Virus record (IMG/VR): IMGVR_UViG_3300032516_000159
Location: 1-26,876 of that record
Strand: one strand, 5' to 3'
Source of the DNA: a virus
Length of the DNA: 26,876 nucleotides
In this document: piece by piece, positions 676-26,027 of the stretch
How positions within the stretch are numbered: the first letter of the stretch is position 1
Layout: each line of letters begins with the position of its first letter
Notes under the pieces: model-generated
Databases searched by the model: none
What the model was told of the DNA's origin: nothing
The model's input: only the letters and a program-made list of their open reading frames with translations
Program-made: the position numbers and the translations under genes

Positions 676-3600
676 CTACTCCGTCACCGCAGGATGTGGT
701 GTACTTTTCGTCTTCACGTATGCCGCAAGGCGTGCCCGTGCAGACTTATCGCTCACAGTCATAACGGCTGGCCACGAATTGAAATAAGGATCCGTCATAA
801 GCGTTCTGCCAAGCGGGTGATCTGCCAAACGCCATGCGGACTCATCCGCCGGGCCGTTATTCAAAAGTCTCGCCAGAACCACCTCGTCGGCCCTGCTTAT
901 GCTCCCATTCATTCTTATCTTTTCGATAGCCGATTCAGCAACCTTCACGAAATTATCCGGGTGCTCCGGCTTAAATCCAAACTTGGCCCACGCGTATTTG
1001 CCAACATCCACGTTAGCCTGAAGCTTCACCTGCAGCACACCCATCTTGTCGTAGGCCTGGAAGCTGCGTTCGAGCACATCCTTGGCAATGCCAGCCCCCT
1101 GCTTGTCGTCTTCCACCTCGAAGCCCTCGTGAACGACGCGGAGGTTTCCCGATTCACTGTAGGAAATAGTCCTTACTATTTTGGCATCTGGAACATCGAG
1201 TGTTACGTGAGCGGCGCCTTCGTCATCCAATTCCCAGTAGCAGGATTCCCCCGGTTTAGTGAAAGCAGCCGAAAACGTATCTATCTGCTCCCCCCAAGCC
1301 ATGCGCAATTCTTCTTCTTCTCTAACCCGAATGGCTCTATCTTCAGCCTCTTCCTTTGCGAAATCAGGCCTAGTACCGCTACCAGCGTCTGTCCACTGAT
1401 TCCCGTGGAACTCGTGGCCCGTAGCTTCGCCAGCCACCCTCATCCCGAACACCTCCAACCGATCGTCCGTGCGCTTGGGCCAGTCGGCATTCGACAGAAT
1501 AGCGTCGATGTTGTAGAGCACTTCCACGGGGATCTGCTTAACAAACTCCGCTCCACGAAGGCTGCCCTTCAGACGCTTCTGCCACCCTTCACTCGGCTGG
1601 GCCATGTAGACCTTAAGCCGTCCGCCAAGCAGGAGGATCTCGGACTCCGTAAGACATCCGCGCCCTGTTACTGCCGTACTGAGCACACGGGCAACCGGCA
1701 CGCGAGTGGCCATCACGTACCCGGTATCCATAGCGAATGTCTTAGCAGTCTCCAAGTCCGTCGTCCAAGAAGAGGCTGGCTGCATACGCACTTCCGTATG
1801 CCCGTCATGTGTTTGTCCCGCGTTCACTTCACCACGGTACACCGTCACATGCGTAATACCCTGCTCTTTGAACCAGCGTTGCGTGTTCTCGTACTCCGCC
1901 CGGGCATACAACTGATCTATCTCGGGCACATGTGAACTGGTCGTGCGCAGATGGTCTATAGCGGCATCCTTGATATCGAACTCCGCAGCGACCGCCACCT
2001 GTCGGGCTACAGCCACCGGAGAAGAATCTCCAGACGTCACAGCCCACTGGTCCAAGTTCCGCTGTACTTCTTTACCCCAGGCCTCTCGCACGTCTGGTTC
2101 AACCTGGGACTTGAATTGCTCGACGATAGCCTCTTTCGTTCTGGCCCGTATCGTTTCACCAGCGTCTTTGGCCGAAACGTGAAAGCCACCATGCTTACTC
2201 GCTACATCCGCAAAGGCCTTGTCTACGGCCGAAATCTCTTCCGCGGACCCGCCACCTTCACTGGTCCACTGGTTTCCGTAAAATGGATGGCCTTCCACAT
2301 CGCCAAGACTTCTGCGAACAACCAACGGCAACACAAAGTCCTGCCCGTCGTTAAACGGATTGGCTTGCCCCACAGCCCGAGCACCGAAGGCTATGTGGTA
2401 GTATGGAAACGAATTCCATTTCGCCGTACCGTGCATCTCTGTCGCGCCCTGTTCTCGACCCCAGTCCATCACCTGACGAATGAGTTTCATGCCGGCGCCA
2501 GGGGCTACGCTTCCGGCCCACTTCAACTCCAAATCACCATCCGGCCGTATCACACCGAGCGCAGCAGCAGCGATACCGCCCGGCTTACTGGCGTCCAGCT
2601 TGTAGGCAAACTTCGCCGTCGCCGCTAGCTCTGGGTTACGGTTGGCCTTTTCTTGGCTTTCCAAGACAGTTGAAATAGCATCGAACGCCGAGTATTCCCT
2701 GAGCTTATTCGGGTTTGCTTTGTCCTCAAACGACGAAGTCTCGTCGATGGCTTCTTTCGCTGCCTCGATAGAGATCAGCTTGCCCTGAATCTCTTCGGAT
2801 GTCCAGGTAGCCCCAACACCACCATCGGTAAACTGATTGCCGTGAAACGGGTGCCCCTCGGCTTCTCCAGCCGCCCGAGCCTCTGTGTCCTCCAATATCA
2901 CAGCAACATAGACAATAGAAGCTCCTCCATCAGAAAGCTCCCGCCGCACCATCTTACCTGACTTATTCGGCTCATGCACAGCCTTAATCCACGCAGGGGG
3001 TATAGTCTCCTGTCCCCTGTAGACTATGTGGTCTCCGCTTTTTTCGGGATACAGACGTCCTTTTGTCCTTGGTTCGAAACGTCCTATTGCCGACTTGGGG
3101 ATGCTGACCTCGAACACGACACTGCGTCGGCGCTCAGTCCCAGCCCCACGGGCATAACCTAGAGCTTCCTCTAAGGAAGATGTAGCGTACACCTTGCTGT
3201 ACTTCGGCCGAATACCGTACCTAAGGATGCTCTTAAGATTTTCCTCGGCACTCCCGTGAAAAGCGGTAGTATCCCCCGTCCACTGGTTCCCATGAAACTC
3301 GTGCCCAGCTCCTTCCCCCGCCGCCCGCGCCTTGGAAGCATAGATCGCACGTTCCTGAGCCAGCGCACCCTCCCGCGACGTGTGGCGGCCCAAAACCTTG
3401 CTTCCGTCCTTGGTATACAGCACCCACGATCGTCCAACCTTGCGCACGGTGGCGGAGCGGAGATCCGCTTCCTCTGCTGCGCGCGGTAAGCTCAACCCTA
3501 CAGTGCACCGGCACCGCGGGTGACCTGGCGGCGTTGTGACCGGCTCTCCGTCAAAGTCAAAGTCCTCATCGAGCCTGACGGTAACACCGTCCATCGCTTC

Positions 3601-6600
3601 ACAAATAGGGCAGTTATGTACAACAATTCCGCCCGCTACGAAACTCTCGTCCTCTTCCACCCGCAAATCGTAAACAGTTTGCCGTGCCACGGTTTTATAA
3701 GTAATCTGTTTAGGCCCCAGCCGGACAAAGCAGCAGTGTTTACGTATCTCAGAAGCCACGTTGTGAATACCGTCTTGCAGCTCTCGAAGCGTAAACTCCA
3801 AATAACGCACACCTTGTTTTTTTAGAGCATCTACCCGCGGCCGGCGTCCCAGCACCTCCGAGGGTATTTTTGTGCTTACACACTCGATGACCAACTTCGG
3901 CCCCGGAAGATAGAAATCCGCAAAGCCCTTTCGGTGTTCGTTACTCTGATCGGCATACTCGTATTCCCACTGCTGCAGATATTCAAGCCGCTGCGCTTCC
4001 AGTAACCCTTTCAGTATCTGTTCATTCTTCACATCCCCAGAAAGCGTAGGAAGCCTCTTTGATTTAATGCTGTCTCTTATGATTTGTATGAGATCTTCAT
4101 AGGACTGAGCACCAAAACCTATAACGCCTTCTTGAGCAAATTTCAATAACTTATCTCTACGCCCTCGTTCGGAAGCATCCATATGTGCTAAATAAGCCGG
4201 GTCTTTCCACAAAACCTTTATGGCTTCACTCATTTCCTCTTTTCGCCCCGGCTCGGCCCAGCGTTCTCTGTTTCGCCAAGAGAGCAAATCATGCTGTGCC
4301 GGATCGTTCCATCGAACCTTGTTTGATTCCTGTGGGGCACACACAGAACAAAAGCTCACATCCTGCCCCGGCCCACTCTTGAGAAGCTGCCCACAGCCTC
4401 CCGCGCAAGGTTTTGCAAACACGGTTAAAACATCTGTGAGCTTCACGTTTTCAGCGTCTATCCAATCTTCCCCAATTAGGATTGGATGATTTGGAGTTAC
4501 GGATACTTTGATACCGGCTCTACCACCTATCTTGAACGACACCATCGGACCATCGTACCGTTTTGCAAATATTGCTGCCACGCGGCAAAACCGGTCCTTA
4601 TGTGTCAACACATAATCGCCGACTTTGATATGGTTGACATGGACCCAACCCTTTGTCGTCATAACAGGTGTGCGATTTGCTACGGCCAACCGGTCATCAG
4701 GCGTAGTAATCCACTCCTTCATCTCGTTACCCGTAAGCTGTCCGTCATCAACGGCCTGCTCCCAGAGTTCCTGTTGGCCCTCGTTGGCAGCGCGCATCGT
4801 TTCCGTCGAAGCTATCGTCTCCGCCCGGTAGTTCAGCATCTCCTCACGCCGGGCATCAATCTCATCTTCCAGGTCGGCCCCCTCAACACCTTGCTCATCC
4901 AGGCTCTCACGCAGCAACAGGAGTGTCTCGGTCTGCTTACCGGTCAGGCCGATGAAGCTGCGCAGCATCTTCTTCATGTCGCGCACCTGGAAGTCGCCGG
5001 TCATTACGCGAGCCGTTAGGTAACGAATACCCTCCTTGGCGTCATCGAGAATATCCTGCACCAGCTCCGCCGCATGATTGCGGGCCCACGCAATAGCAGC
5101 CGGATTGGACTGGTCGAACCGCATACCGGTGGAGGGGCGCTTGGCGGAGCGGAGAGCTGCTGCTCTCTGCCGCTTGAATAATTCTGGGAACAACTCACCC
5201 AGTGCGCCGCCCCTGCCAACAAGACTGCCCTTCCCGAAAAACTCGTGGTGCAGCCCGAACACTTCTGTATCCGATGGAGCCCCGTGAGCCACGAAACTCT
5301 CCACGGCTTTATACACAGCATCAAACAAAAGCGCATTGTTATGCTGCATTTTCTCAGTGTCTTCATACGTTCGGTCGGGAAGTCCACCGCGAAGATACGC
5401 GCCAGACTTCGTATCAAACACAATCATCGGAGGCGTTCCGTTATCCTGGACTCCGTAAAATAGACCACGCACCTGCTCGTCGTAAGGGGCCAGTTGCTCA
5501 TCGCCTTTTTGGCGGGCCACTGCGTATGTCTCGGCATGCGTGTCTCTAGCAGCATCAGGATTCGTAAGATAATTGCCAAAAATGAACTTCGAAGACGACG
5601 GGTCAAACATGAATCGACGCGTGCCTAGAGAATTGAAATCAAATGCTCGCGCTACAAAGACGCCCCCAGGCGCTTCGGGCTGCGAAGAAGACCCACCTTC
5701 CGTCCACTGATTCCCATGAAACGGATGGCCAACCGCTTCTCCTGCCGCTCTCTGCCGCTGCTGGTGCTCACGGCCCTGCCAATAGTAAGCGATACTCTGC
5801 GGCGTCAGCGGGCCGTTCACATCCCCGGCATGCTGTCCAGTAAGCTCAATCCCGTGCTTTGCGTAGTAATCCCCAACAGCAAAGTAGTCATCCACCGACG
5901 GCACGGCATCCCACAAAACCTCTTTATGGGCCATACGGAAGCGTTGATGAAGATCCGGCTGCTGTTTGAACGTTTCCGCGTGGTTACGCTTCCAGATGTC
6001 CGCCGCAGACGGCAGGTGCATCGCTTCTATAGAGCCATCGTTGCCTACCTGACCGAGAGAGGCGACGATAGGCCGCGGTGTGCCAACGTCCGTCCACTGA
6101 TTCCCGTGGAACGGGTGGCCTTCAGCTTCGCCGGCGTCTCGAATACCTTCAAGATCTGTTAGTGGCCCTAGCGGCCCCTTCCTCTTGCTCGGGTCTATAC
6201 TGCCTTCCGGCTGTCCGCCATACGTTTTCTGCCAATTATGTGTGCCGGTAAGCACCACTTCCCATTGATGCTTTGCTCCAATACCGCGCCCACCAATAGA
6301 TAGGACGTCTTTAGCCGGCACACGAGCCACAACCACGCGCTCGCCAACTCGATTGGCAAACGTACCGGCCACTTTCGGAGATAACGTCCAACTGCTAGCC
6401 GCTCGAGTCTGCTCGCCGGAGGACTTCGCACCCTGCCACACGATCAGTTCGGTGATACCCTTCTTGGTCAGATACTCCTGGGCTTCTTCGTGGCTCGCCC
6501 GTAGCACACTCTCGAACACGCGATCTGGAATGTTCTTACCTGCAGGCCACGGCACCGGGTCGTTTTCGTGAATAGAAACGCTAGCCAAAGGCCCCAGCAT

Positions 6601-9600
6601 CCCCCGCGTGTCCTGTTTACCACCGCCAATCTCTACCCGTGGACCGCCGAACACGTTAGAAGCCGCCACCTTGAAACGGTCCATGTAATATGGCGAACCA
6701 ATTTGCCACTTCTCAATCACCTTCTCTGCTATACGAATCTCTTCCTTGGATAGCCCGAGCTTCTCGAGCCGCGGAGTAAGAATAACCGTGGCCCTAGCAG
6801 ATTCCTGAAAAGAGCGCTGCTTCAAATAGCCAGCACTAGGCACTATGCCGAACAGCTTCTTGCCCTGCTCAGCAGAAACAACGTCCAGAGGGCGCCCCGT
6901 AGAACCAGCATCGTACTGGTTTCCATAGAACGGATGCCCCTCAACGTCCCCTGCGGCCCGTAGAGCCTCCATTGTGTCCGGCGTCCGTTTAGCCCAGTCC
7001 GCATTCTTTAGATCAGCATCGATGTCGTAGACGGCCACTTCCGAACCGCGCAACTTTGACAGAACATTTGCAAGCCAACCCTTATCGTTCGTATTCTGCG
7101 CGTGGACCTTCATGGTGCCGCCTAGCACCAGTACCTCGGCCTCCGTCAAACACCCCCGTCCGGTTACGCACGTGCTTAGGATGCGGCTCACCGGCACCCG
7201 CACCGACATGACAACCCCACCCTTACCGAAGTCGCGTGCCACCTGCGGGCTTGTCGTCCACGACGAGATGGGCTGCATACGCACTTCCACGTCGCCGGTC
7301 TTCGGAACCGGGTACTTACCCTCGTGTGGCTCCTGCCCTCTAAACAGCGTGACGTGCGTAATGCCCTGCTCTTTGAACCATTCCTGCGTATGCTCGTACT
7401 CCCGACGAGCATAGAACTTATCCACAATACTCACATCCGGGATCGGTTGATCCGGCGTCACCATGTGTGAGATGCCGGCATCCGCTAGACCAAACTCCTC
7501 TTTGACAGCAAGTTGCGAGGCTACTGCACGCGGCAGATGGTCCCCCGACGTGGTAGCCCACATGTTGAGTTGACGTTGAACTTCCTTTTCCCATGGAAGC
7601 CGCGTCTCAGCATTCAGACCCTCACTCAAATCACGAATAATACCGAGCTTGACTTGCCCTCGCACATAATCGTTAGTCGCTCTCAGCTCGTTAACTTCGT
7701 ATTCCGGCAAGACGGCGTGGGCATTCGCGTAGGCCAGGAAGCCCTTCTCTAGCGCCGCTCGTTCCTGCTCCGATCCGCCTGGCTCAGAGGTCCACTGGTT
7801 CCCATAGAAGGGGTGGCCTTCGACGTCGCCGGCAGTTCTGGACTTTACCACGCGCAAAATCGTCGGGCGCCCGTTCTTAGTCTCTACCACCTGGAACGTG
7901 TGCCCCCGTCCTAGCAGTACTTCCTTTTCCCAACGGGCCTGCCCACCGAGCGCTCGCACCTTCTCCAACTTCTGAATAGCCCGCTCATACCTTCCGCGCA
8001 GGCCTGCCGGTCCCCCCGGACGTAGGTTATCGCGAAGGTCGGCCAACTTCACTTCAATAGCTAGCTGGTCCCCGCTCTGCTCGATGCGAGAGATGAAATC
8101 CCTGTACACCTCGCCGCGCTGCCGCGTAAGAATTTCAACGGAGTCGATAACCTTCGCAGGCACCCCTTCCGCCAGTAGCGTTTCCCGCGTGTGCGGCGTG
8201 TCCTCAATCGCGTCATGCAGCCAGGCCACCGGCTTCGCGGCATCCGATACACTGTCAACAACGCGAGAGACATGCTCAATGTAGAAAACACCCTGTCTAT
8301 CAACCTGCGTGGCATGGGCCTTCCGCGCAACGCCTTCGGCCGTGGCAGTCGCATCTCCGGACCCGCCCACCTGCCCCGGCCTCCCCGCATGTCCGAAGTT
8401 GCCGGAGCCGGGACCGCCGAGGGTGTGGATGGGGAATTTGGACTTTGATGCGAGATGCCGCCCGCTCCAGAATGCTTCGCCCTCAGAAGTCTGGCGTTGT
8501 TCTGGCGTCAACTTCTGCCCTGTAGCACCTTCAACGTGCTTGTACAACGTGGACGCTATGCCTTGCCGGCGATACCGACTATCTACGTGCAAATCCGAAC
8601 CAACCGATTTCTTTTTCTGTTGAAAGATGAAAACGCTACCTACTACGTTTTCTTTCGATACTCCTGCAGGCAACTTAGACCAATCCACCTTCACACGCGA
8701 CTCTATAAACTTCCATTTATTTGTCTCTGCCCCCGGCAGCAAGGCAAGTTCGACAGACTTCAAACCAAGAGCCGGATTGCCTACAAATGGAATCGAGTGA
8801 AAACGAAGTTGTGCTCCAACTTCGCCACCCTCTCCCGATCCCCCCACCTGTCCGGGGCGTCCTGCGTGGCCAAAGTTGCCGGAGCCGGGGCCACCGAGGG
8901 TGCGCACTGCACTCGAATCTATCACTCGGGCCTTGATCGAAATACCGAGCAGTCTGGCCGCAGCCGCCCGATGATTCCCATCAAGAATCTGTGTGATACC
9001 AGAGGTCTTCGTTACGACGATCTCGCCAATCTTCTCGGGGTTCCGAATGTAATCGTTCAGGATGTGGCGTTCAAGCGTCTTCTGACTCGAAACGAGCTGC
9101 TTCGAATCTATTTTCTCGACTGTAGCCCTACCGATTAACTCCCGCTTATTGGCGCCATTCAGTTCGAACCACCAGCCAGGGTTCCCGCCCGCCTCGATAT
9201 TGGACGAGCCCGAAATCGGATTAGTGATCCGCGGGGTAAGAGATTGGCCGACTTCCTTTTGGTTCTTGACCCAGTCCAGCGCGCTGTTCTTCGCCTCTTC
9301 GGAAATCACACCTCCCTGACTCCCCGGCACGTGCCCGTTCTCCGCGGTCCACCCACTACCGGGGCCGCCGAGGGTGCGCCACGCTTTTATCTCCTCGGGC
9401 TCAGCTTTCCGAACGCTTTTGATCCGAAAAAACTCAATCCCGCCCTCGTCTTGCTCCCGTGGCCCATACCTCGAATCGAACTCAATGATCAATCCAAACT
9501 TACGATCCGTCAGAGGCTGTGCGCCTAACGCCGTATAAGAAACATACTGGCCCATTCCTGGACCAGGCTTGAACCCATCTCGAAGAATTGCATCGGCATG

Positions 9601-9819
9601 CTCTTCCTTACGGACCATTGTGATACCGTGAGTAGAGCGATACTCATCGCGCGTCTGATCTCCAAATAATACTTTCGCAATCTCAATGGTATCCGGCGCG
9701 TCGCTGCCTCCCTGACTCCCCGGCACATGCCCATTCTCCGCCGTCCACCCACTTCCGGGGCCGCCAGCCGTCACCAGCACGTAATCCACAGGCGCCGTCA
9801 ATCGCTCTTGCAGGGACAT
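676..9819 (-). CDS. Giant 3047-residue multidomain head-associated polyprotein with tagged effector-like domains
   Basis: One uninterrupted frame. Its ATG overlaps the stop of the upstream gene by one base (TAATG), implying translational coupling. In order: GGPGSG tag at 19; ART-like 39-148; tag at 151; ParB/Srx-like 172-305; tag at 309; GNAT 330-460; tag at 468; RSH-type HD 489-645; then GHxFxGNQ[WYF] tags at 668, 961, 1234, 1364, 2172, 2322, 2510 and 2801. These separate an R-S-E ART (678-955), an ART lacking the Arg (971-1226), an unknown domain (1244-1357), an unknown domain plus the SPP1 gp7/Mu gpF head morphogenesis domain (1374-1711 and 2070-2165) split by an intein (1712-2069), an H-Y type ART-like domain (2182-2312), a GNAT-like domain (2332-2500), a second R-S-E ART (2520-2795) and a C-terminal GNAT (2811-3047). 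Head morphogenesis proteins of this family are usually a few hundred residues, so this is a very large fusion. Whether it is cleaved into parts is unknown. Confidence 0.93.
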   Translation of the reverse strand: MSLQERLTAPVDYVLVTAGGPGSGWTAENGHVPGSQGGSDAPDTIEIAKVLFGDQTRDEYRSTHGITMVRKEEHADAILRDGFKPGPGMGQYVSYTALGAQPLTDRKFGLIIEFDSRYGPREQDEGGIEFFRIKSVRKAEPEEIKAWRTLGGPGSGWTAENGHVPGSQGGVISEEAKNSALDWVKNQKEVGQSLTPRITNPISGSSNIEAGGNPGWWFELNGANKRELIGRATVEKIDSKQLVSSQKTLERHILNDYIRNPEKIGEIVVTKTSGITQILDGNHRAAAARLLGISIKARVIDSSAVRTLGGPGSGNFGHAGRPGQVGGSGEGGEVGAQLRFHSIPFVGNPALGLKSVELALLPGAETNKWKFIESRVKVDWSKLPAGVSKENVVGSVFIFQQKKKSVGSDLHVDSRYRRQGIASTLYKHVEGATGQKLTPEQRQTSEGEAFWSGRHLASKSKFPIHTLGGPGSGNFGHAGRPGQVGGSGDATATAEGVARKAHATQVDRQGVFYIEHVSRVVDSVSDAAKPVAWLHDAIEDTPHTRETLLAEGVPAKVIDSVEILTRQRGEVYRDFISRIEQSGDQLAIEVKLADLRDNLRPGGPAGLRGRYERAIQKLEKVRALGGQARWEKEVLLGRGHTFQVVETKNGRPTILRVVKSRTAGDVEGHPFYGNQWTSEPGGSEQERAALEKGFLAYANAHAVLPEYEVNELRATNDYVRGQVKLGIIRDLSEGLNAETRLPWEKEVQRQLNMWATTSGDHLPRAVASQLAVKEEFGLADAGISHMVTPDQPIPDVSIVDKFYARREYEHTQEWFKEQGITHVTLFRGQEPHEGKYPVPKTGDVEVRMQPISSWTTSPQVARDFGKGGVVMSVRVPVSRILSTCVTGRGCLTEAEVLVLGGTMKVHAQNTNDKGWLANVLSKLRGSEVAVYDIDADLKNADWAKRTPDTMEALRAAGDVEGHPFYGNQYDAGSTGRPLDVVSAEQGKKLFGIVPSAGYLKQRSFQESARATVILTPRLEKLGLSKEEIRIAEKVIEKWQIGSPYYMDRFKVAASNVFGGPRVEIGGGKQDTRGMLGPLASVSIHENDPVPWPAGKNIPDRVFESVLRASHEEAQEYLTKKGITELIVWQGAKSSGEQTRAASSWTLSPKVAGTFANRVGERVVVARVPAKDVLSIGGRGIGAKHQWEVVLTGTHNWQKTYGGQPEGSIDPSKRKGPLGPLTDLEGIRDAGEAEGHPFHGNQWTDVGTPRPIVASLGQVGNDGSIEAMHLPSAADIWKRNHAETFKQQPDLHQRFRMAHKEVLWDAVPSVDDYFAVGDYYAKHGIELTGQHAGDVNGPLTPQSIAYYWQGREHQQRQRAAGEAVGHPFHGNQWTEGGSSSQPEAPGGVFVARAFDFNSLGTRRFMFDPSSSKFIFGNYLTNPDAARDTHAETYAVARQKGDEQLAPYDEQVRGLFYGVQDNGTPPMIVFDTKSGAYLRGGLPDRTYEDTEKMQHNNALLFDAVYKAVESFVAHGAPSDTEVFGLHHEFFGKGSLVGRGGALGELFPELFKRQRAAALRSAKRPSTGMRFDQSNPAAIAWARNHAAELVQDILDDAKEGIRYLTARVMTGDFQVRDMKKMLRSFIGLTGKQTETLLLLRESLDEQGVEGADLEDEIDARREEMLNYRAETIASTETMRAANEGQQELWEQAVDDGQLTGNEMKEWITTPDDRLAVANRTPVMTTKGWVHVNHIKVGDYVLTHKDRFCRVAAIFAKRYDGPMVSFKIGGRAGIKVSVTPNHPILIGEDWIDAENVKLTDVLTVFAKPCAGGCGQLLKSGPGQDVSFCSVCAPQESNKVRWNDPAQHDLLSWRNRERWAEPGRKEEMSEAIKVLWKDPAYLAHMDASERGRRDKLLKFAQEGVIGFGAQSYEDLIQIIRDSIKSKRLPTLSGDVKNEQILKGLLEAQRLEYLQQWEYEYADQSNEHRKGFADFYLPGPKLVIECVSTKIPSEVLGRRPRVDALKKQGVRYLEFTLRELQDGIHNVASEIRKHCCFVRLGPKQITYKTVARQTVYDLRVEEDESFVAGGIVVHNCPICEAMDGVTVRLDEDFDFDGEPVTTPPGHPRCRCTVGLSLPRAAEEADLRSATVRKVGRSWVLYTKDGSKVLGRHTSREGALAQERAIYASKARAAGEGAGHEFHGNQWTGDTTAFHGSAEENLKSILRYGIRPKYSKVYATSSLEEALGYARGAGTERRRSVVFEVSIPKSAIGRFEPRTKGRLYPEKSGDHIVYRGQETIPPAWIKAVHEPNKSGKMVRRELSDGGASIVYVAVILEDTEARAAGEAEGHPFHGNQFTDGGVGATWTSEEIQGKLISIEAAKEAIDETSSFEDKANPNKLREYSAFDAISTVLESQEKANRNPELAATAKFAYKLDASKPGGIAAAALGVIRPDGDLELKWAGSVAPGAGMKLIRQVMDWGREQGATEMHGTAKWNSFPYYHIAFGARAVGQANPFNDGQDFVLPLVVRRSLGDVEGHPFYGNQWTSEGGGSAEEISAVDKAFADVASKHGGFHVSAKDAGETIRARTKEAIVEQFKSQVEPDVREAWGKEVQRNLDQWAVTSGDSSPVAVARQVAVAAEFDIKDAAIDHLRTTSSHVPEIDQLYARAEYENTQRWFKEQGITHVTVYRGEVNAGQTHDGHTEVRMQPASSWTTDLETAKTFAMDTGYVMATRVPVARVLSTAVTGRGCLTESEILLLGGRLKVYMAQPSEGWQKRLKGSLRGAEFVKQIPVEVLYNIDAILSNADWPKRTDDRLEVFGMRVAGEATGHEFHGNQWTDAGSGTRPDFAKEEAEDRAIRVREEEELRMAWGEQIDTFSAAFTKPGESCYWELDDEGAAHVTLDVPDAKIVRTISYSESGNLRVVHEGFEVEDDKQGAGIAKDVLERSFQAYDKMGVLQVKLQANVDVGKYAWAKFGFKPEHPDNFVKVAESAIEKIRMNGSISRADEVVLARLLNNGPADESAWRLADHPLGRTLMTDPYFNSWPAVMTVSDKSARARLAAYVKTKSTPHPAVTE
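679..1389 (-). other. Domain 12 of giant protein: GNAT-like C-terminal domain, residues 2811-3047
   Basis: The motif DDKQGAGIAKDVL (Q2907-G-A-G) is the acetyl-CoA loop of GNAT enzymes and is followed by VGKYAWAKFGFKPEHP, a typical motif B end. The last 70 residues (ADEVVLARLLNN, HPLGRTLMTDPYF) are an extension I do not recognise. Confidence 0.7.
1435..2262 (-). other. Domain 11 of giant protein: second R-S-E ADP-ribosyltransferase, residues 2520-2795
   Basis: R2662 in VTVYRGEV, S2684 in SSWTT and E2725-x-E2727 in TESEIL complete the ART triad. It shares blocks with domain 5 throughout its length (KEVQR.L..WA.TSGD, YAR.EYE.TQ.WFKEQGITHVT, STxVTGRGCLTE). This indicates an old internal duplication, now diverged at DNA level. 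Confidence 0.85.
2320..2826 (-). other. Domain 10 of giant protein: divergent GNAT-like, residues 2332-2500
   Basis: Pattern LELKWAGSVAPGAGMKLIRQVMDWG followed by KWNSFPYYHIAFGARAVG resembles GNAT motifs A and B (G-x-G-M-x-L, then a Tyr-Gly-Ala end where GF is usual). It lacks the canonical R/Q-x-x-G-x-G/A. Assignment is tentative. Confidence 0.5.
2884..3276 (-). other. Domain 9 of giant protein: H-Y type ART-like, residues 2182-2312
   Basis: The tag at 2172 runs straight into TTAFHGSAEENLKSILRYGIRP, then KVYATSSLEEALGYA. H2188 and Y2211 are in the places of the H-Y pair of PARP/DarT/Tpt1-like ART domains. The same TTAxHG entry follows the first tag of the 728-residue protein, so the two domains are related (both also share KPEWIKA/PPAWIKA and SGGSIxVAVxL-like ends). 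Confidence 0.65.
3322..3612 (-). other. C-terminal part of the head morphogenesis domain, residues 2070-2166
   Basis: Starts at the C-extein CPICEAMDGVTV and continues to TTPPGHPRCRCTVGLSLP, the paired CxxC and HPxCRC zinc-binding hallmark of SPP1 gp7/Mu gpF proteins. A short basic region (GRHTSREGALAQERAIYASK), similar to the small KDGK...T+e.A..hErAI segment seen in many phage proteins, links to the next tag. Confidence 0.88.
3613..4686 (-). other. Intein (Ala1, class 2-like) with zinc knuckle and Vsr-like nuclease insert, residues 1712-2069
   Basis: Block A reads AVANRTPVMT, with Ala at position 1 and T6/V8 in place. Block B is TPNHPIL, block F is VYDLRVEEDESFVAGG and block G is VVHN followed by C+1 (C2070). 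Removing residues 1712-2069 rejoins ...TTPDDRL with CPICEAMDG, restoring the conserved CxxC segment of the head morphogenesis family. An N-terminal Ala with C+1 as nucleophile is the pattern of class 2 (KlbA-type) inteins. The insert holds a C4 knuckle (about 1804-1831, CAGGCGQ...CSVC), NUMOD3-like WKDPAYL repeats, and FADFYLPGPKLVIEC followed by GRRPRVDALKKQGVRYLEF, which resembles a Vsr/PD-(D/E)xK homing nuclease. Confidence 0.9.
4687..5700 (-). other. Domain 8 plus N-terminal part of the head morphogenesis (SPP1 gp7/Mu gpF-like) domain, residues 1374-1711
   Basis: Residues 1374 to about 1560 form an unrecognised domain (FDFNSLGTRRFMFDP, HAETYAVARQKGD, THAETY-like His/Glu pairs). From about 1565 the sequence becomes the helical part of the SPP1 gp7/Mu gpF family: a long charged helix, RAETIASTETMRAANEGQ, and then KEWITTPDDRL, the segment that in this family precedes the CxxC. 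Those proteins sit at the portal and head interface and are needed for head assembly. The intein begins right after L1711. Confidence 0.78.
5749..6090 (-). other. Domain 7 of giant protein: unrecognised, residues 1244-1357
   Basis: This is a short module between two tags, rich in His, Trp and Tyr, with HAETFKQQPDLHQRF, VDDYFAVGDYYAKHG and IAYYWQGREHQQRQR. I recognise no family. Its boundaries are set by the tags on either side, which supports it as a separate unit. Confidence 0.5.
6142..6909 (-). other. Domain 6 of giant protein: ART-fold domain with Arg replaced by Gln, residues 971-1226
   Basis: The layout matches the ART domains (LIVWQGAK, SSWTLSP at 1142-1148, then HQWEVVL) but the usual catalytic/NAD-binding Arg is Q1129 and the terminal motif is Q1185-x-E1187. 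A QxE motif occurs in C3-like exoenzymes, yet loss of the Arg suggests altered or lost activity. The N-terminal 150 residues are not recognisable. Confidence 0.6.
6955..7788 (-). other. Domain 5 of giant protein: R-S-E ADP-ribosyltransferase, residues 678-955
   Basis: The three ART elements are intact: R827 in VTLFRGQE, S853 in SSWTTSP, and E893-x-E895 in TEAEVL after GRGCL. The ExE form is typical of arginine-directed mono-ADP-ribosyltransferases. An approximately 150-residue helical N-terminal part precedes the catalytic core. It is closely related to residues 2520-2795 of the same protein, with shared segments such as WFKEQGITHVT and GRGCLTE. Confidence 0.85.
7885..8355 (-). other. Domain 4 of giant protein: RSH-type HD hydrolase ((p)ppGpp hydrolase-like), residues 489-645
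   Basis: All signature blocks of the RelA/SpoT-homologue hydrolase fold are present in order: KAHATQ...GVFYIEHV (two His), WLHDAIEDT (H535, D536 and the following E-D), EILTRQRGEVY, and VKLADLRDN around residues 590-598. Family knowledge says these residues bind Mn and remove pyrophosphate from (p)ppGpp. No synthetase domain is attached, so it resembles stand-alone small alarmone hydrolases (MESH1-like). Function in a phage head fusion is inferred. Confidence 0.78.
8440..8832 (-). other. Domain 3 of giant protein: GNAT acetyltransferase, residues 330-460
   Basis: The acetyl-CoA pyrophosphate-binding motif is visible as RYRRQGIASTLY (Q419-G420-I421-A422), preceded by a strand LHVDS and followed by a helix ending in GEAFWSGRHL, typical of motif A and B of the GNAT family. 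It should transfer an acetyl group from acetyl-CoA to an unknown target. It is flanked by two GGPGSGNFGHAGRPG tags. Confidence 0.75.
8905..9306 (-). other. Domain 2 of giant protein: ParB/sulfiredoxin-like, residues 172-305
   Basis: The signature ILDGNHRAAAARLLG (D280, G281, N282, H283, R284) matches the D-G-x-H-R motif of the ParB/Srx superfamily, which binds or hydrolyses nucleotides. The preceding stretch (KIGEIVVTKTSGITQ) fits the strand before it. Members fused to phage head proteins have been described as possible effectors. The substrate here is unknown. Confidence 0.72.
9376..9705 (-). other. Domain 1 of giant protein: ART-like fold, residues 39-148
   Basis: The segment has THGITMVRK, then AILRDGFKPG, then YVSYTALGA and a hydrophobic GLIIEFD strand. 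This order (His or Arg strand, helix with I-L-x-x-G, small-residue strand) is seen in compact ADP-ribosyltransferase/PARP-like domains. No clear ExE motif is visible. The fold assignment is an inference from pattern alone. The domain is flanked on both sides by the GGPGSGW-type tag. Confidence 0.35.
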
Positions 9820-13776: not shown

Positions 13777-15093
13777 CTATCTCCCCCACGTCGCTTCCTG
13801 CTCAACTACGACATGCCGAAGCCTTTCAACGGCATAGCGTAGCGAGTCGATCACGTGATTTTTCTTGTCCTGCAAAATTGGCGTGGTTATCCCCGTTAGC
13901 CTGTCCACTTTGAAAGAATAGAGGGTCAACTCGTCGATGGTGTGAATGCAGCGCGGATGAACGTGGATGTTGTAGTTCTGCAGAAAGATCACACCTTCCT
14001 TGACGCTGTCCTTACCCTTTATCGAAGGCTCGATGCGCGGAAACCCGTGCCGCTGCAGATACGAAATTGTTTCCGGTCGCGCAGAATCCGCAATGATGGG
14101 CCAGTCTCGAGAGCCGGGCACCCCATCAAACAAGGCCGGCAGATGGTCTATCTCGACGCCAATTCTGTACACCTCGTGATCGATGTAGAGATCTCTACCA
14201 TTTACCCAGCAGCGCACCAGCACAGACGGGTCCACCGAGAAACCCCAGTCCCCGCCCAAGTAGAACACCGTGTCCCCAGGAGCATCGACAGCCTCAATCG
14301 TCCAGTTCTTAAAGACGCGAGACTCGCTGTTGCGCTCATACTCCCCCATCCAGACGTGCGCGTACTTCTCCGGATCCCGACTACGGTCCCACTCCATCTC
14401 GTCCTGGAGCACGCCTGGAAAGTGCGGGTTGTCCCTGTAGGTAGATCCGATAATGATGGCGTTAGGCGGCGTTGCCGCTCCGCGTAAAAGCTGATCCACA
14501 GGGTCCGTGGCCCTGCGCGGGTTCCAGGAGAACCACAACTCCGAATACTCTTTCCGAATAGTCGGCCGCAGCAGTGTCAAAGACCGCTCGGAGAACGTCT
14601 GCGCTTCCTCCACCCACGCTACGTCGTAACCCTCTAGGGACTTGATGCTGTCCGCGGTGTAGGTGGCCATCCCCTTGAAGATGATGATGCCACCACGCGG
14701 CGTTTCAATGTGGGTATCGAGGATCCGAAAGTCGTCTCGCAGGCCAAAGACGTCAATCTTGTCCTCGAGCAGACGCTTTACCGACTGCTCGAGGCTGGCC
14801 TGAAACTCACGGACGCACACGGCCCGTATTTTCCGTCCGCGGCACTTGTCCAACAGCAGTTCCGCAAAGACGTGAGACTTGCCGCTACCGCGGCCGCCCC
14901 ATGCGCCCTTGTATCTGCTTCGTTTAAGGAAGGGAAGAAAGACGGGAGGGATATCCGAATGAGAGGTTAATCGACGTCGAGCCAGCTCCGCCGCAATAGC
15001 GTTGCTTCTGTCAACAATAGCGTCAATTTCGCTAATTGACGACGCTTGGGTCTGGGGTATCGATGACAGGTTTATGGGCCACGGGAACCTCAT
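13777..15093 (-). CDS. terL: Terminase large subunit (PBSX/Terminase_3 type)
   Basis: 438 residues, complete. Walker A GGRGSGKS at 66-73 and Walker B YDVAWVEEA near 156-164 form the packaging ATPase; FSWNPRR (188-194) is the coupling motif of this family. The C-terminal RNase H-like nuclease has D282 (GGDWGFSVDPS), D336 (IIADSARPE) and D416 (HVIDSLRYA). It translocates and cuts phage DNA at the portal. The ATG at 15093 overlaps the upstream gene by 62 bases; no better start lies nearer its stop, so I keep it. Confidence 0.96.
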   Translation of the reverse strand: MRFPWPINLSSIPQTQASSISEIDAIVDRSNAIAAELARRRLTSHSDIPPVFLPFLKRSRYKGAWGGRGSGKSHVFAELLLDKCRGRKIRAVCVREFQASLEQSVKRLLEDKIDVFGLRDDFRILDTHIETPRGGIIIFKGMATYTADSIKSLEGYDVAWVEEAQTFSERSLTLLRPTIRKEYSELWFSWNPRRATDPVDQLLRGAATPPNAIIIGSTYRDNPHFPGVLQDEMEWDRSRDPEKYAHVWMGEYERNSESRVFKNWTIEAVDAPGDTVFYLGGDWGFSVDPSVLVRCWVNGRDLYIDHEVYRIGVEIDHLPALFDGVPGSRDWPIIADSARPETISYLQRHGFPRIEPSIKGKDSVKEGVIFLQNYNIHVHPRCIHTIDELTLYSFKVDRLTGITTPILQDKKNHVIDSLRYAVERLRHVVVEQEATWGR

Positions 15094-15676
15094 TCATTCG
15101 TGTTTGCGGTGTAAGGCCTTTAACAGCACGCGCTCGACCTGCCTCGTCGCGAGCACGCAGGGCCAGCACTTCCAGTTCGCTCGCAAGCTCTTCTGTCGTC
15201 TTATCCGCCAGGCCTTCTCGCTTGTCTTCCACGGACACAACCGAGTGCGGGCCAAACCCTGCCCTATCCATCAAGGCACGAGCCGCGTTTACACGCACCG
15301 GCCAGTCCGGGCAGGCGTTCCCGTGCTCACGGCAAAGCACGACGCGATCAAACTTGACCTTACGTGTTGGCTTGCCAGCAGGCGTGAGAGGAACCTCTTC
15401 CTCCGGGTTATCGAGGAAGTAATACTCGCAGTGCAATCCGAGGGCTTTGAATAGGGTCTTGAGCGCAGGTTCTACCAGCTCGAGAAGACGTCGAGAAGCC
15501 GCTGCGCGGGCTGTCGGGGCAGAACCGCCATGAACATTACAGACGTCCGAGCCAATCATCGGGGCCCCTAAGCAGCGCTCGCCTGTCCCGGCGGCAATCG
15601 CCGTGCACTGCTTGGTTCCCATCTTTTCGACTGGGCCAGAAACCCGCGTGACATCCCTGAGATCTTCTAGGGCCAT
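15032..15676 (-). CDS. Zinc-knuckle protein in the small-terminase position
   Basis: 214 residues. The pattern C24...C35...C46-x-x-H49 followed by GGSAPTARAAASRRLLEL is a small zinc-binding head often found in phage proteins encoded just before the large terminase; some are annotated as small terminase subunits. The middle part holds DRVVLCREHGNACPDWPVRVNAARALMDRAGFGP, and the C-terminus is charged and probably helical (ELASELEVLALRARDEAGRA). If it is the small terminase it would bind packaging sites and dock on TerL. I am fairly sure of the gene, less of the role. A strong promoter lies 58 bases upstream, and this is the first gene of the structural operon. Confidence 0.75.
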   Translation of the reverse strand: MALEDLRDVTRVSGPVEKMGTKQCTAIAAGTGERCLGAPMIGSDVCNVHGGSAPTARAAASRRLLELVEPALKTLFKALGLHCEYYFLDNPEEEVPLTPAGKPTRKVKFDRVVLCREHGNACPDWPVRVNAARALMDRAGFGPHSVVSVEDKREGLADKTTEELASELEVLALRARDEAGRARAVKGLTPQTRMNEVPVAHKPVIDTPDPSVVN

Positions 15677-15733
15677 TGGAGTTCGACTTCGTAAAACACA
15701 ACGTGACCGAGAACCTACACCTCAGTCGTGACA

Positions 15734-15762
15734 AGCATATACGACTTCGTGTTCCGTGTCAA
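15734..15762 (-). promoter_or_regulatory. Strong sigma70-like promoter of the structural operon
   Basis: On the minus strand TTGACA (15757-15762) and TATGCT (15734-15739) are separated by exactly 17 bases. Transcription would start near 15727 and give a leader of about 50 bases before the ATG at 15676. It lacks the TGTGG found before the -10 of the early promoters, so it may belong to another timing class. Confidence 0.78.
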
Positions 15763-15835
15763 GAGAAATCTGTGTGGTATTTTTAAGACAGTTCTTCTCA
15801 GACTGCCCTTGTCCCACCGTCGGCCTACGTAACGG

Positions 15836-15885
15836 GTTCCCCCTAAAGGGGGAGAACACCGCTACGTTCATTGGCAACGTAGCGG
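15836..15885. repeat. Two adjacent hairpins upstream of the structural promoter
   Basis: CCCCC-TAAA-GGGGG (15839-15852) is followed by a perfect 10-base inverted repeat, CCGCTACGTT-CATTGGC-AACGTAGCGG (15859-15885). Neither is followed by a T-run on the minus strand, so intrinsic termination is doubtful. The second is built from two of the CTACGT repeats, which suits a protein-binding palindrome. Confidence 0.6.
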
Positions 15886-16054
15886 GGCTATACTGGGCTA
15901 TGCTCGGTAACGCTACGTCTATTATCATCTAACTCCTTCTTTCGCAACACTTTGGACATAGCGGGGGTTCCCGGCTACGTTCCTAAAAACCGCGCAGGCA
16001 TTCGGGCGCAGGCCACCTCAGATACGTAGCCAGACGCCTCGATTTGGAACTGTA

Positions 16055-16073
16055 ACCTGTTCTGTCTACAGGT
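16055..16073. repeat. Inverted repeat ACCTGT-N7-ACAGGT
   Basis: A perfect 6-base inverted repeat with a 7-base centre lies 36 bases past the stop of the ATPase gene. There is no T-run, so it could be an operator half-site pair or a weak hairpin at the end of the replication transcript. Confidence 0.4.
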
Positions 16074-16108
16074 GTTTACGGACCCGCTACGTTTCCGATT
16101 TTGCTCCA

Positions 16109-17311
16109 TCACAGTTCTGTCTCCAGCGCCTTCAAACCAGACTCTTTAATCTCAAACGGTTCGCCACGTTTCCCCTCTACGATCCACCCTTCTCGCAGCA
16201 GTTGCCTTATAGCCGCCAGGACAAGGTCTTGGCTAATCCCCATTCGGTTTCGCAGCTTCGTAATGTTAGTGGCATCTGGGTATTTCTGTATGGCCCTCAG
16301 CACGGACAGTCTTGTCTCTTGATCCTTCTCTTCCTCCCTCCGCTGCCGCTGCTCTCGCATCTCCTTCGAACTGCCTAATCGCATTACCAGTGATGTGACG
16401 GGTCTTCCGCTCTCGTGGACCATCTGCAGGCCGTGGCCGTTGTAAATCGGTATGACGCACCCCATCAGCTCCAGGGGCACGGGTCTCTGGTCGTCCTTCT
16501 GCTTCGTGCAGACCACCTTCACGTTACGACTGTCCAAAATCAGCGCGTCTTCCTTCTCGTCCATGTCTAATTGAATCTCCGTATCTATCGCGCCAAACAC
16601 GGCCCCGGATCCGCGCCCTCCACCATTTGTAGAGGACTTGGCCGGATGGTGAATGAAGGCCACCGTAGAACGCGCGGGGCGTTGGAGGAGCGTGCAGAAG
16701 TTAATGACCTCCCCCATGTCCTTCGCGCTGTTCTCTTCCGCACCGGGGGAGCACCTGGCGAGCGTGTCCACCACAATAAAAATCGGTTGCATCTGTTCCA
16801 CGACGGCCAGCAACTCTTTTTGTAGGTTCTCGTCGCGCAGGTTCACGGGTAAGGGGATAATACGGAAGGGAATGGTAAGCGGGTCGAACTCGTGCTCCTG
16901 GCACCACGCGCGGATGCGATACTGGAACGCCCCGCCACCTTCCGCTGCTATGTAGAGAACGGGGCCGTAGCGTGTAATAGTGTAACCGAAGAAGTGGGTA
17001 AGGCCGCACGCGATAGACAAAGAGGCATCGAGAGCGAAGAACGTCTTAAGTGCGCCAGGATGGCCAACGATTTGAATAAGCCCAGTATCCGGGAACCACT
17101 GGTCTACCACATACTGCGGTTGCGGACGGGCGAAGAGTTCTTGAATGGTGAGGGCCTGCAGCGGTGGCTGCGGCGGCTGCTCTTCAGCATCGAGGGCTTT
17201 CTTTGCCTTGCGTCTCGCCGCCTCCAAACGTTTGATGTTTGAGTCAAAGGACTCTTGTGCCTTTTCGTGTATTCTAAGGGCGTCGGCTGCAGCCTTTTCT
17301 TGCTCAGTCAT
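16109..17311 (-). CDS. RepA-like AAA ATPase (replicative helicase type) with C-terminal winged helix
   Basis: I start at the ATG at 17311 (400 residues), which overlaps the primase stop by 8 bases; a longer frame would run into the primase. Residues 83-90 read GHPGALKT, a P-loop variant common in phage RepA-type ATPases; IFIVVD (177-182) is Walker B, HHPAK (221-225) and GRGSGA (232-237) are the later RecA-fold motifs. Residues 1-50 are a charged helix and a Pro-rich linker. About residues 330-395 form a winged helix (VLRAIQKYPDATNITKLRNRMGISQ...LREGWIVEGKRGEPFEI). Proteins of this kind unwind DNA beside a primase, here encoded immediately upstream. Confidence 0.85.
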   Translation of the reverse strand: MTEQEKAAADALRIHEKAQESFDSNIKRLEAARRKAKKALDAEEQPPQPPLQALTIQELFARPQPQYVVDQWFPDTGLIQIVGHPGALKTFFALDASLSIACGLTHFFGYTITRYGPVLYIAAEGGGAFQYRIRAWCQEHEFDPLTIPFRIIPLPVNLRDENLQKELLAVVEQMQPIFIVVDTLARCSPGAEENSAKDMGEVINFCTLLQRPARSTVAFIHHPAKSSTNGGGRGSGAVFGAIDTEIQLDMDEKEDALILDSRNVKVVCTKQKDDQRPVPLELMGCVIPIYNGHGLQMVHESGRPVTSLVMRLGSSKEMREQRQRREEEKDQETRLSVLRAIQKYPDATNITKLRNRMGISQDLVLAAIRQLLREGWIVEGKRGEPFEIKESGLKALETEL

Positions 17312-18137
17312 CGCTGCGCCCCGGATCAAAATCTGGTGTGACGGAGCGCACAATAACAATCGCTTGTCCGACGGGGATGCCGGCGTCTAGTAACCCGCTG
17401 GCCAGGTCCCAACCGACTTGCGGGGAGGGCGCGAAATCACCACGATGTTGGTGTTTTCCTACACGTTTCAAATATGGCTTGAGCGTGTCCTTGCCGAGTG
17501 GCGGGAAGCAGTGCGTTTGGTCCACGGCATAGCAAGCCTCGAGGGCCGGATCGAACGGGACACCTCTTGCTAGCAAAGAACGGAGCAGGGCAAACATCTT
17601 GTCGTGGCGTTCACCTGCGCAGATACGAGGAGGGAGGCGGTAGGGCATCCCGTCTTCTGAGCCGCGTTCGCCGGGAGGGCGATCGTCATAGCAGAAGAAT
17701 TCAGGGAAGTACGGGATGTCGCTCCACTTCCAACTCCAATCGGCTGCTCTGTAGATGAGCCCACTCGGATGCGTGGAGCCGGGGCCAACGACGTATTGGC
17801 CGACGTTTCTGTGTTCGATTGTGAGGCCGTCGCGATGGATGTATTTGGGGCTCGGGGCGAGCTGCCTGTAATACCGGTGCAGGCCGCGGGTTGTGTGCAC
17901 CATGAAGGGCGTGTCGAGGAGATACTGCTGGGCCCAGGCTTCGTCTTCTGGGGTATCGGTATCTACTACGGCTAGGACGCCGAGGATCACCCCGTAGTTC
18001 TTCCAGGTAGCCGCTTCTTTTTCGGTAGCGCGGTAGTCCGTCCACGACTTACATGCTGGCGTCTTACCGCCGGAGATGATGGGGAACACGCCGATGGAGT
18101 GTTCGAGGAACCAGCGAGTAGCGGTGGCGGTGCTCAC
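17304..18137 (-). CDS. Primase-polymerase (AEP/Prim-Pol superfamily) with PriCT-like C-terminus
   Basis: I prefer the GTG at 18137 (277 residues): it has AGGTGGAG six bases upstream and forms a GTGA overlap with the stop of the gene before. The frame could open further upstream at 18224 but that part is Arg-rich and overlaps the preceding gene. The N-terminal domain shows the bifunctional primase/polymerase pattern: VFPIISGGKTPA (17-28), VVDTDTPE with D59 and D61 as metal ligands, HTTRGLHRYY (81-90) and VGPGSTHPSGLIY (117-129). A PriCT-like helical part follows (GERHDKMFALLRSLLARGV...HCFPPL, 175-213). It makes primers for phage DNA synthesis. Confidence 0.87.
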   Translation of the reverse strand: MSTATATRWFLEHSIGVFPIISGGKTPACKSWTDYRATEKEAATWKNYGVILGVLAVVDTDTPEDEAWAQQYLLDTPFMVHTTRGLHRYYRQLAPSPKYIHRDGLTIEHRNVGQYVVGPGSTHPSGLIYRAADWSWKWSDIPYFPEFFCYDDRPPGERGSEDGMPYRLPPRICAGERHDKMFALLRSLLARGVPFDPALEACYAVDQTHCFPPLGKDTLKPYLKRVGKHQHRGDFAPSPQVGWDLASGLLDAGIPVGQAIVIVRSVTPDFDPGRSDD

Positions 18138-18352
18138 GGGATCTCCACCTGCCTTTTTGTGGCCCGCCACTCGCTGTGCGCCTGTTTCATGGCGCTTCGT
18201 AGAAGAACGTCGTCCCCTACCCACTCCAAGAGCCGGTAGAGCCTCGCGTAATGGCGCGGAAATGTGGGGGATTTAGAAGCAAATCTGGCGAGATCCCCGA
18301 CAGGACCGCGACGCTTGGTTTGCGTCAACAAAAAGACAGCGAATTGTGTCAC
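18134..18352 (-). CDS. Small YozE-like protein, 72 residues
   Basis: GTG start at 18352; the stop forms a GTGA overlap with the primase GTG. The sequence MTQFAVFLLTQTKRRGPVGDLARFASKSPTFPR... ends in EWRA and follows the F-x-x-[WF]-L-x-x-Q...p.gdLA...p.fP pattern of the small helical YozE/SAM-like family found in phages and plasmids. Function unknown. Its ribosome site AAGGGG lies in the stem of a small hairpin, see 18355-18366. Confidence 0.75.
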   Translation of the reverse strand: MTQFAVFLLTQTKRRGPVGDLARFASKSPTFPRHYARLYRLLEWVGDDVLLRSAMKQAHSEWRATKRQVEIP

Positions 18353-20233: not shown

Positions 20234-20250
20234 CTGATCCTCCCACCTAC

Positions 20251-20279
20251 ATATTACCATACTCGGGAGGGAATTACAA
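20251..20279 (-). promoter_or_regulatory. Promoter-ribosome cassette (TTGTAA-17-TAATAT)
   Basis: -10 TAATAT at 20251-20256, -35 TTGTAA at 20274-20279, then GGTGGGAGGATCAG and the ATG at 20233. The expected start leaves a leader of about 10-12 bases. The -35 contains the stop codon of the gene before (20274-20276). Confidence 0.75.
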
Positions 20280-22121: not shown

Positions 22122-22141
22122 CTGTCTTACCTCCCACCTAC

Positions 22142-22170
22142 ATATTACCACAAAGGGCATCGGAAGTCCA
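22142..22170 (-). promoter_or_regulatory. Promoter-ribosome cassette (TGGACT-17-TAATAT)
   Basis: -35 TGGACT at 22165-22170, spacer TCCGATG...TTTGTGG, -10 TAATAT at 22142-22147, then GGTGGGAGGTAAGACAG before the ATG at 22121. Confidence 0.8.
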
Positions 22171-22391: not shown

Positions 22392-22408
22392 CTGATCCTC
22401 CCACCTAC

Positions 22409-22437
22409 ATATTACCACAAAAGGTATCGGAAGTCCA
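22409..22437 (-). promoter_or_regulatory. Promoter-ribosome cassette (TGGACT-17-TAATAT)
   Basis: -35 TGGACT at 22432-22437, -10 TAATAT at 22409-22414, spacer TCCGATACC...TTGTGG. The GGTGGGAGGATCAG ribosome site ends at the ATG 22391. Confidence 0.8.
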
Positions 22438-22632: not shown

Positions 22633-22650
22633 TGCTGTCCTCCCACCTAC

Positions 22651-22679
22651 ATATTACCACAATCCGATGCGGAAGGCTA
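22651..22679 (-). promoter_or_regulatory. Promoter-ribosome cassette (TAGCCT-17-TAATAT)
   Basis: -10 TAATAT at 22651-22656, spacer of 17 (TTCCGCATCGGATTGTGG region), weak -35 TAGCCT at 22674-22679, which overlaps the stop codon of the gene before (22677-22679). Confidence 0.7.
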
Positions 22680-24401: not shown

Positions 24402-24418
24402 CTGACCCTCCCAATTAC

Positions 24419-24447
24419 ACTTTACCACGATCCGCATCGGAAGTCCA
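24419..24447 (-). promoter_or_regulatory. Promoter-ribosome cassette (TGGACT-17-TAAAGT)
   Basis: -35 TGGACT at 24442-24447, spacer TCCGATGCGG...CGTGG, -10 TAAAGT at 24419-24424. The -35 and spacer code for the last residues (LDFRCGSW) of the gene before, and the stop TAA is part of the -10. Confidence 0.65.
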
Positions 24448-25981: not shown

Positions 25982-25998
25982 CTGATCCTCCCACCTAC

Positions 25999-26027
25999 AT
26001 ATTACCACAATTCGTATCGGAACACAA
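25999..26027 (-). promoter_or_regulatory. Promoter-ribosome cassette (TTGTGT-17-TAATAT)
   Basis: -10 TAATAT at 25999-26004, spacer TCCGATACG...TTGTGG, -35 TTGTGT at 26022-26027, then GGTGGGAGGATCAG and the ATG at 25981. Confidence 0.75.

Follow-up and report, generated by a model that had tools for sequence, protein, structure and literature searches.

A GCTACGT repeat cluster directly past the RepA-type helicase gene of a metagenomic phage: a predicted iteron array of a replication origin

Introduction

In RSF1010, the RepA helicase operates along with the RepB' primase and a dedicated iteron reader, RepC, and the alpha protein of P4 is described as binding its repeats through a winged helix (both according to PMC4234260). 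Origin recognition has been suggested as a possible role of the winged helix in those PrimQH proteins that carry a RepA-type helicase (Kazlauskas et al. 2018, PMC5862659). In SaPI Rep and SCCmec Cch2, the C-terminal domains bind iterons located just downstream of the helicase gene (PMC7581432). The polymerase of phage NrS-1 needs an 8-nt recognition sequence for priming, and two copies of this sequence in the middle of the genome may serve as the origin (PMC7102993).

The locus considered here belongs to an uncultured phage represented by the IMG/VR record IMGVR_UViG_3300032516_000159 (26,876 bases, hereafter “the window”); all the window counts given below cover this record, which is probably a fragment of the phage genome. 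The window combines an RSF1010-type helicase and a predicted iteron reader in one protein, with the Prim-Pol encoded separately, an arrangement of an already known kind. It shares with RSF1010 the helicase fold (Z 24.7), the presence of a primase, and the iterons, but RSF1010 relies on the separate RepC for reading the iterons, whereas the winged helix of the window RepA is fused to the helicase (cf. PMC4234260). The likeness to SaPI and SCCmec includes the iterons directly past the initiator-helicase gene, the C-terminal reader (a predicted one in the window), and the separate primase partner; however, Cch2 translocates in the 3'-to-5' direction and is likened to MCM, whereas the window protein has a RecA-fold core resembling RSF1010 RepA, and the SCCmec Cch2 iteron, AAGTG, is unlike GCTACGT of the window (PMC7581432). 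The PrimQH proteins display the same RepA-type helicase with a C-terminal winged helix, but are mostly single fused proteins, whereas Prim-Pol and RepA are split in the window (PMC5862659).

The origins of pRN1-type replicons and of Bordetella phage BIP-1 also reside directly 3' of a gene encoding Prim-Pol, helicase, and winged helix, but they comprise one long stem-loop, reportedly without iterons, and a superfamily 3 helicase (PMC4234260). A pRN1-type origin was considered for the window and rejected: several iterons are present there, and the perfect inverted repeat spans only 10 bp. NrS-1 is similar to the window in its related terminase (46%) and in the repeat array (AAAGTGT) following the Prim-Pol gene, but its polymerase possesses DUF5906 and NrS-1-specific head and tail domains instead of AAA_25.

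The Repeat Cluster and Its Surroundings

The main genes of the window are located on the minus strand in the order small early genes, Prim-Pol, RepA, gap, putative terminase small subunit, TerL, portal, and very large structural ORFs. The features around the gap are as follows:

17304..18224, minus strand: Prim-Pol primase-polymerase (PF09250), overlapping the RepA ORF at its listed start
16109..17359, minus strand: RepA, RSF1010-RepA-like hexameric helicase (matches to AAA_25 and the C-terminal winged helix HTH_24)
15677-16108: gap of 432 bases, holding the cluster
15734..15762, minus strand: sigma-70-like promoter TTGACA-17-TATGCT of the structural operon (consensus match only)
15032..15676, minus strand: putative terminase small subunit, a name based solely on position (match to PHROG 3678, function unknown)
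13777..15093, minus strand: terminase large subunit, TerL (Terminase_3)

Beyond this region, a leader repeated ahead of several early genes, roughly TGGACTTCCGATNCCTTTTGTGGTAATATGTAGGTGGGAGG(ATCAGATG), is read on the minus strand in copies that are 71-100% alike (20239-20279, 22130-22170, 22397-22437, 22639-22679, 24407-24447, and 25987-26027); judged by its sequence, it looks like an early promoter joined to a ribosome-binding cassette. At the other end, a 3047-aa ORF (676-9819, minus strand) contains many EGHPFHGNQ-like repeats and displays matches to DRAT ADP-ribosyltransferase, acetyltransferase, and MuF-like domains. An intein splicing match (residues 1739-2069) immediately precedes the MuF-like stretch.

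The gap between the RepA gene and the putative small-subunit gene harbors the following repeats and associated elements:

15824..16092, both strands: iteron cluster, core GCTACGT (inverse ACGTAGC), six exact copies and two one-mismatch copies
15861-15867, 15912-15918, 15974-15980, 16086-16092, plus strand: exact GCTACGT
15877-15883, 16024-16030, minus strand: exact GCTACGT
15824-15830 (plus strand, CCTACGT) and 15956-15962 (minus strand, GCTATGT): one-mismatch copies
15825-15830, 15862-15867, 15913-15918, 15975-15980, 16087-16092, plus strand: exact CTACGT
15877-15882, 16024-16029, minus strand: exact CTACGT
15859..15885: two iterons forming a perfect inverted repeat (10 bp, 7-nt spacer) capable of hairpin extrusion
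15839..15852: short palindrome CCCCCTAAAGGGGG next to the cluster, read from the sequence
15751..15800: AT-richest 50 bases of the gap by base composition (62% A+T)

The seven CTACGT copies reported in about 270 bases by the first-pass annotation were recovered in 268 bases, compared with nine across the other 26.6 kb of the window. When all 7-mers were allowed to compete, ACGTAGC reached six copies per 270 bases, and the maximum in shuffled sequences was three or four in 60 of 60 cases; the same test with 6-mers was weaker, since one of the 60 shuffles reached seven. The octamer CGCTACGT, whose abundance throughout the genome would have spoken against a specialized element, occurs six times in the window, including four times in the cluster (mean of 0.90 and maximum of three in shuffles), so it is not frequent elsewhere in the window, with two copies outside the cluster. 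The two identical 10-mers and their inverse annotated earlier are also present: CCGCTACGTT occupies 15859-15868 and 16084-16093, and the first of these copies forms the perfect 10-bp inverted repeat with the exact inverse located at 15876-15885. The repeat cluster is real and non-random. Its nearest copy is 16 nt away from the RepA stop codon.

When folded as DNA, the stretch 15800-16108 (minus strand) was more stable than expected (z -3.56), with none of 100 shuffles being equally stable. The exact hairpin pattern was present in no other viral contig searched, no DNA similar to the window was found in the phages collection, the Rfam search returned no family, and the tRNA search found none. 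The gap holds no strong AT-rich unwinding element, its best 50 bases having 62% A+T; 15751..15800 is at most a weak candidate for a possible unwinding element. The cumulative GC skew, proposed earlier as a check on the origin, reaches a minimum near 16-17 kb that is only local, the curve declining anew past 19.5 kb. A rolling-circle nick site was set aside because no Rep nuclease was detected among the ten proteins scanned against Pfam. An intrinsic terminator or another RNA element was likewise rejected: the only terminator-like site (15727-15705) lies downstream of the promoter, not within the cluster, and 0.7 such sites are expected by chance.

A translated small gene, or another element repetitive by chance, can hardly be credited as the source of the cluster. 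A 68-aa ORF (15722-15928, minus strand), with the purine-rich AAGGAG four bases upstream of its ATG, does overlap half of the array, but it has no PHROG match, its best tblastn match is at chance level (E 0.8), and the repeats occur in different frames and on both strands, inside as well as outside the ORF.

The late promoter suggested by the first-pass annotation stands as a consensus match (one found vs. 0.2 expected in shuffles), 62 bases away from the nearest CTACGT copy. The operator role proposed with it, i.e., an operator or activator array in which a phage regulator bound to GCTACGT switches late transcription from the structural-operon promoter, fared worse and is regarded here as improbable. 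The promoter-like site downstream of the nearest copy would suit such an array, and the inverted pairs would suit a dimeric regulator; still, none of the copies overlaps the promoter, and the copies reach more than 300 bases upstream of it.

The RepA Protein

Both neighbors named by the first-pass annotation, the RepA-type ATPase and the Prim-Pol, are corroborated by Pfam matches. In RepA, the match to AAA_25 is followed C-terminally by a match to HTH_24 at residues 348-393, the latter barely above the cut-off (22.4 vs. 21.9). Single-sequence searches of the viral contigs with RepA, Prim-Pol, and portal yielded zero confirmed relatives. The profile built from 39 RepA relatives matches RSF1010 RepA (E 1.4e-15), and the Walker lysine K105 is invariant across these 39 sequences. 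The closest fold to the AlphaFold2 model of RepA (mean pLDDT 86.5) is that of RSF1010 RepA, with Z 24.7 over 228 residues, a match confined to the core (9.7e-11 in Foldseek). Beyond the helicase core, the model shows one long helix as well as a small domain, also helical, that contains the HTH_24 stretch. Judging by its sequence, modeled fold, and Walker lysine taken together, the protein is a member of the RSF1010 RepA helicase family.

Repeat Clusters among RepA Loci

Scanning of loci had revealed clusters immediately past rep in L023, L027, L052, MW202867, and NrS-1; therefore, a position rule was proposed and then tested on new loci. The best 80 of 573 confirmed loci from the RepA alignment search, chosen by protein similarity alone, together with the window and four earlier loci made up the 85 loci tested. 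Eleven of them, having no stop codon or less than 500 bases after it, were dropped, and the remaining 74 formed 41 groups when clustered at 80% protein identity. Each locus was scored by the copy number of the commonest 7-mer within the 500 bases past the rep stop codon, and five or more copies were taken as a cluster.

A post-stop cluster was found in 28 of the 41 non-redundant RepA loci, the mean top 7-mer count being 5.34, and in 23 of 36 when the five loci seen beforehand were left aside. In nine other positions of the 500-base window, at least five copies were reached in 2/40, 0/35, 0/35, 0/32, 1/31, 0/35, 1/35, 3/31, and 0/41 loci. With 300-base windows, the 36 independent loci averaged 5.06 copies after the stop vs. 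2.32 in 795 other windows (Mann–Whitney p 2.5e-22), and in 22 of them no other window of the locus equaled the post-stop one. Within the 28 clusters, the first copy occurs at a median of 10 nt past the stop codon (within 50 nt in 24 and within 80 nt in all 28), and copies in both orientations are present in 25. The iteron words vary between the lineages of the 41 loci.

The remaining 13 of the 41 loci display no cluster of five or more, in at least one case (L124) because the ORF reads into the array. A mechanically called ORF of at least 100 aa spans the array in 15 of the 28 clusters, hence some clusters cannot be called non-coding, although the array of the window is spanned by none. Overall, the clusters are located beside homologous initiators, though not universally.

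The same loci bear on the readings in which the repeats serve the neighboring structural genes. TerL of the window's family is encoded in the downstream flank of only 2 of the 36 independent loci, at distances of 2.1 and 2.9 kb, which argues against both an operator of the structural operon and a packaging site.

Named Phages and Single Relatives

Arrays were found in 5 of 16 named phage records, i.e., in PB15 (8 copies), CGphi29 (5), CRP-831 (10), NrS-1 (13), and MW202867 (8); NrS-1 and MW202867 had been seen before the test. In NrS-1 (L083, 7188-7620), the 13 copies of AAAGTGT directly follow the Prim-Pol gene, many of them as inverted pairs. The other 11 of the 16 records lack an array; these are GB2A, BFK20, NBR1, Vibrio 1.210.O, Sour, and Acadian, as well as Vibrio 1243, TPA2, HokkenD, MW202475, and Shagrat. 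Several of the array-less phages encode a DNA polymerase I of their own as well as a second helicase, and such phages may start replication differently. In the named phages, the clusters follow rep irrespective of the genes beyond them (thymidine-salvage, sulfate, or hypothetical ones), which also disfavors an operator tied to the structural promoter: the repeats of the relatives go with rep, not with the terminase.

The gene order of the window, i.e., Prim-Pol, RepA, repeats, putative small subunit, and TerL, recurs in L052. By structural genes, L001 is the sole close relative (64% for both TerL and portal). Its putative small subunit is 55% identical to that of the window (61% in the best segment); the search of viral contigs with this protein returned only L001 and the distant L084, and no relative was found in the genome_contigs collection. 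The protein of the window (15052-15676, minus strand) and its L001 homologue both carry C24, C35, C46, and H49, perhaps a zinc-binding start of the putative small subunit. L001 possesses a different rep gene, followed in the same slot by different repeats, GGCGAAAC and its inverse. These repeats are weak: the 8-mer has three copies, a count reached by shuffles, and the 14-base inverse pair was recognized by eye. As in the window, the putative small-subunit gene of L001 is preceded by a sigma-70-like sequence, a parallel which would speak for the operator.

In phage lambda, cosB lies ahead of the small-subunit gene. A similar packaging site, with the terminase small subunit binding the repeats, would be in line with the location of the window cluster directly ahead of the putative small-subunit gene and with L044-L046, where a CGGTTACA cluster precedes the terminase genes at a distance from the Prim-Pol gene. 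This reading is nevertheless considered highly improbable, since throughout the family the clusters keep close to the stop codon of rep, with no terminase of the window's family nearby, and L001 has entirely different repeats in spite of retaining a 55%-identical putative small subunit. As to its coordinates, the cluster preceding the terminase genes occupies 7271-7480 in L046 (it is present in L044 and L045, too); in L046, it is about 2.4 kb away from the Prim-Pol/DUF5906 gene and represents an exception to the position rule.

Joint Change of the Iterons and the RepA C-Terminus in One Trio

Three relatives, L135, L138, and L124, have near-identical RepA cores (203/209, 209/209, and 220/228 identical residues, 96-100%), and their C-terminal regions share only 114-116 of 149 residues. 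Their repeats are GGTCGAAT in L135, GGTCAAAT in L138, and GTGACGAAT in L124. Between L135 and L138, the same single base differs in the aligned copies; the core of L124 is the same as that of L135 (209/209), yet the spelling of the repeat differs. This switch is as expected if the C-terminal region reads the iterons, and does not amount to a general proof. Across all 820 pairs of sequences, C-terminal identity was no better than core identity at predicting shared iterons (AUC 0.66 and 0.66). In L092 and L097, the iterons changed from CCGTATC to CCGTACC, the core and the C-terminus being equally diverged. In L124 (3000-3466), the rep ORF is devoid of the stop codon used in L135 and L138 and runs into its own iteron array.

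A Model of the Proposed Origin and Its Implications

We consider the cluster, with a probability of roughly 80%, to be the predicted iteron part of a phage replication origin read by RepA. This reading is based on computed features, namely the repeats and where such clusters lie across the family, the order of the genes, the folds, and the joint switch in the trio; from them, we infer binding by RepA, unwinding, priming, and origin activity. The candidate origin bound by the RepA-type ATPase, put forward in the first-pass annotation, gains support from the clusters located directly 3' of the RepA genes in many phages.

According to the proposed mechanism, the origin would sit directly 3' of the gene of its own initiator. 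The C-terminal winged helix of RepA would bind the GCTACGT sites, both the direct copies and the inverted pairs; the bound RepA would then assemble, open the DNA, and load itself as the helicase, and the neighboring Prim-Pol would synthesize the initial primers on the strands thus exposed. Dual use of the array, with RepA as an autoregulator, is possible as well.

In a wider context, many phages with RSF1010-RepA-type helicases might carry a self-contained, swappable replicon in which the fused winged helix reads an array starting no more than tens of bases past the stop codon, a generalization to which we give about even odds. In such a replicon, the specificity of the initiator and the origin would move and change together, GGTCGAAT, GGTCAAAT, and GTGACGAAT would represent natural specificity swaps, and the fused reader would replace RepC of RSF1010. 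The rule combining the position and the fused reader was not stated in the literature searched, which includes few subscription journals.

With this reading, an anonymous repeat cluster of a metagenomic phage becomes a testable origin. The finding also offers a rule for locating the origins of uncultured phages, i.e., to look just past the stop codon of the RepA-type helicase. The close relatives with switched iterons would provide ready pairs for learning how winged helices read iterons, and such arrays are carried by the cultured phages PB15, CGphi29, CRP-831, and NrS-1.
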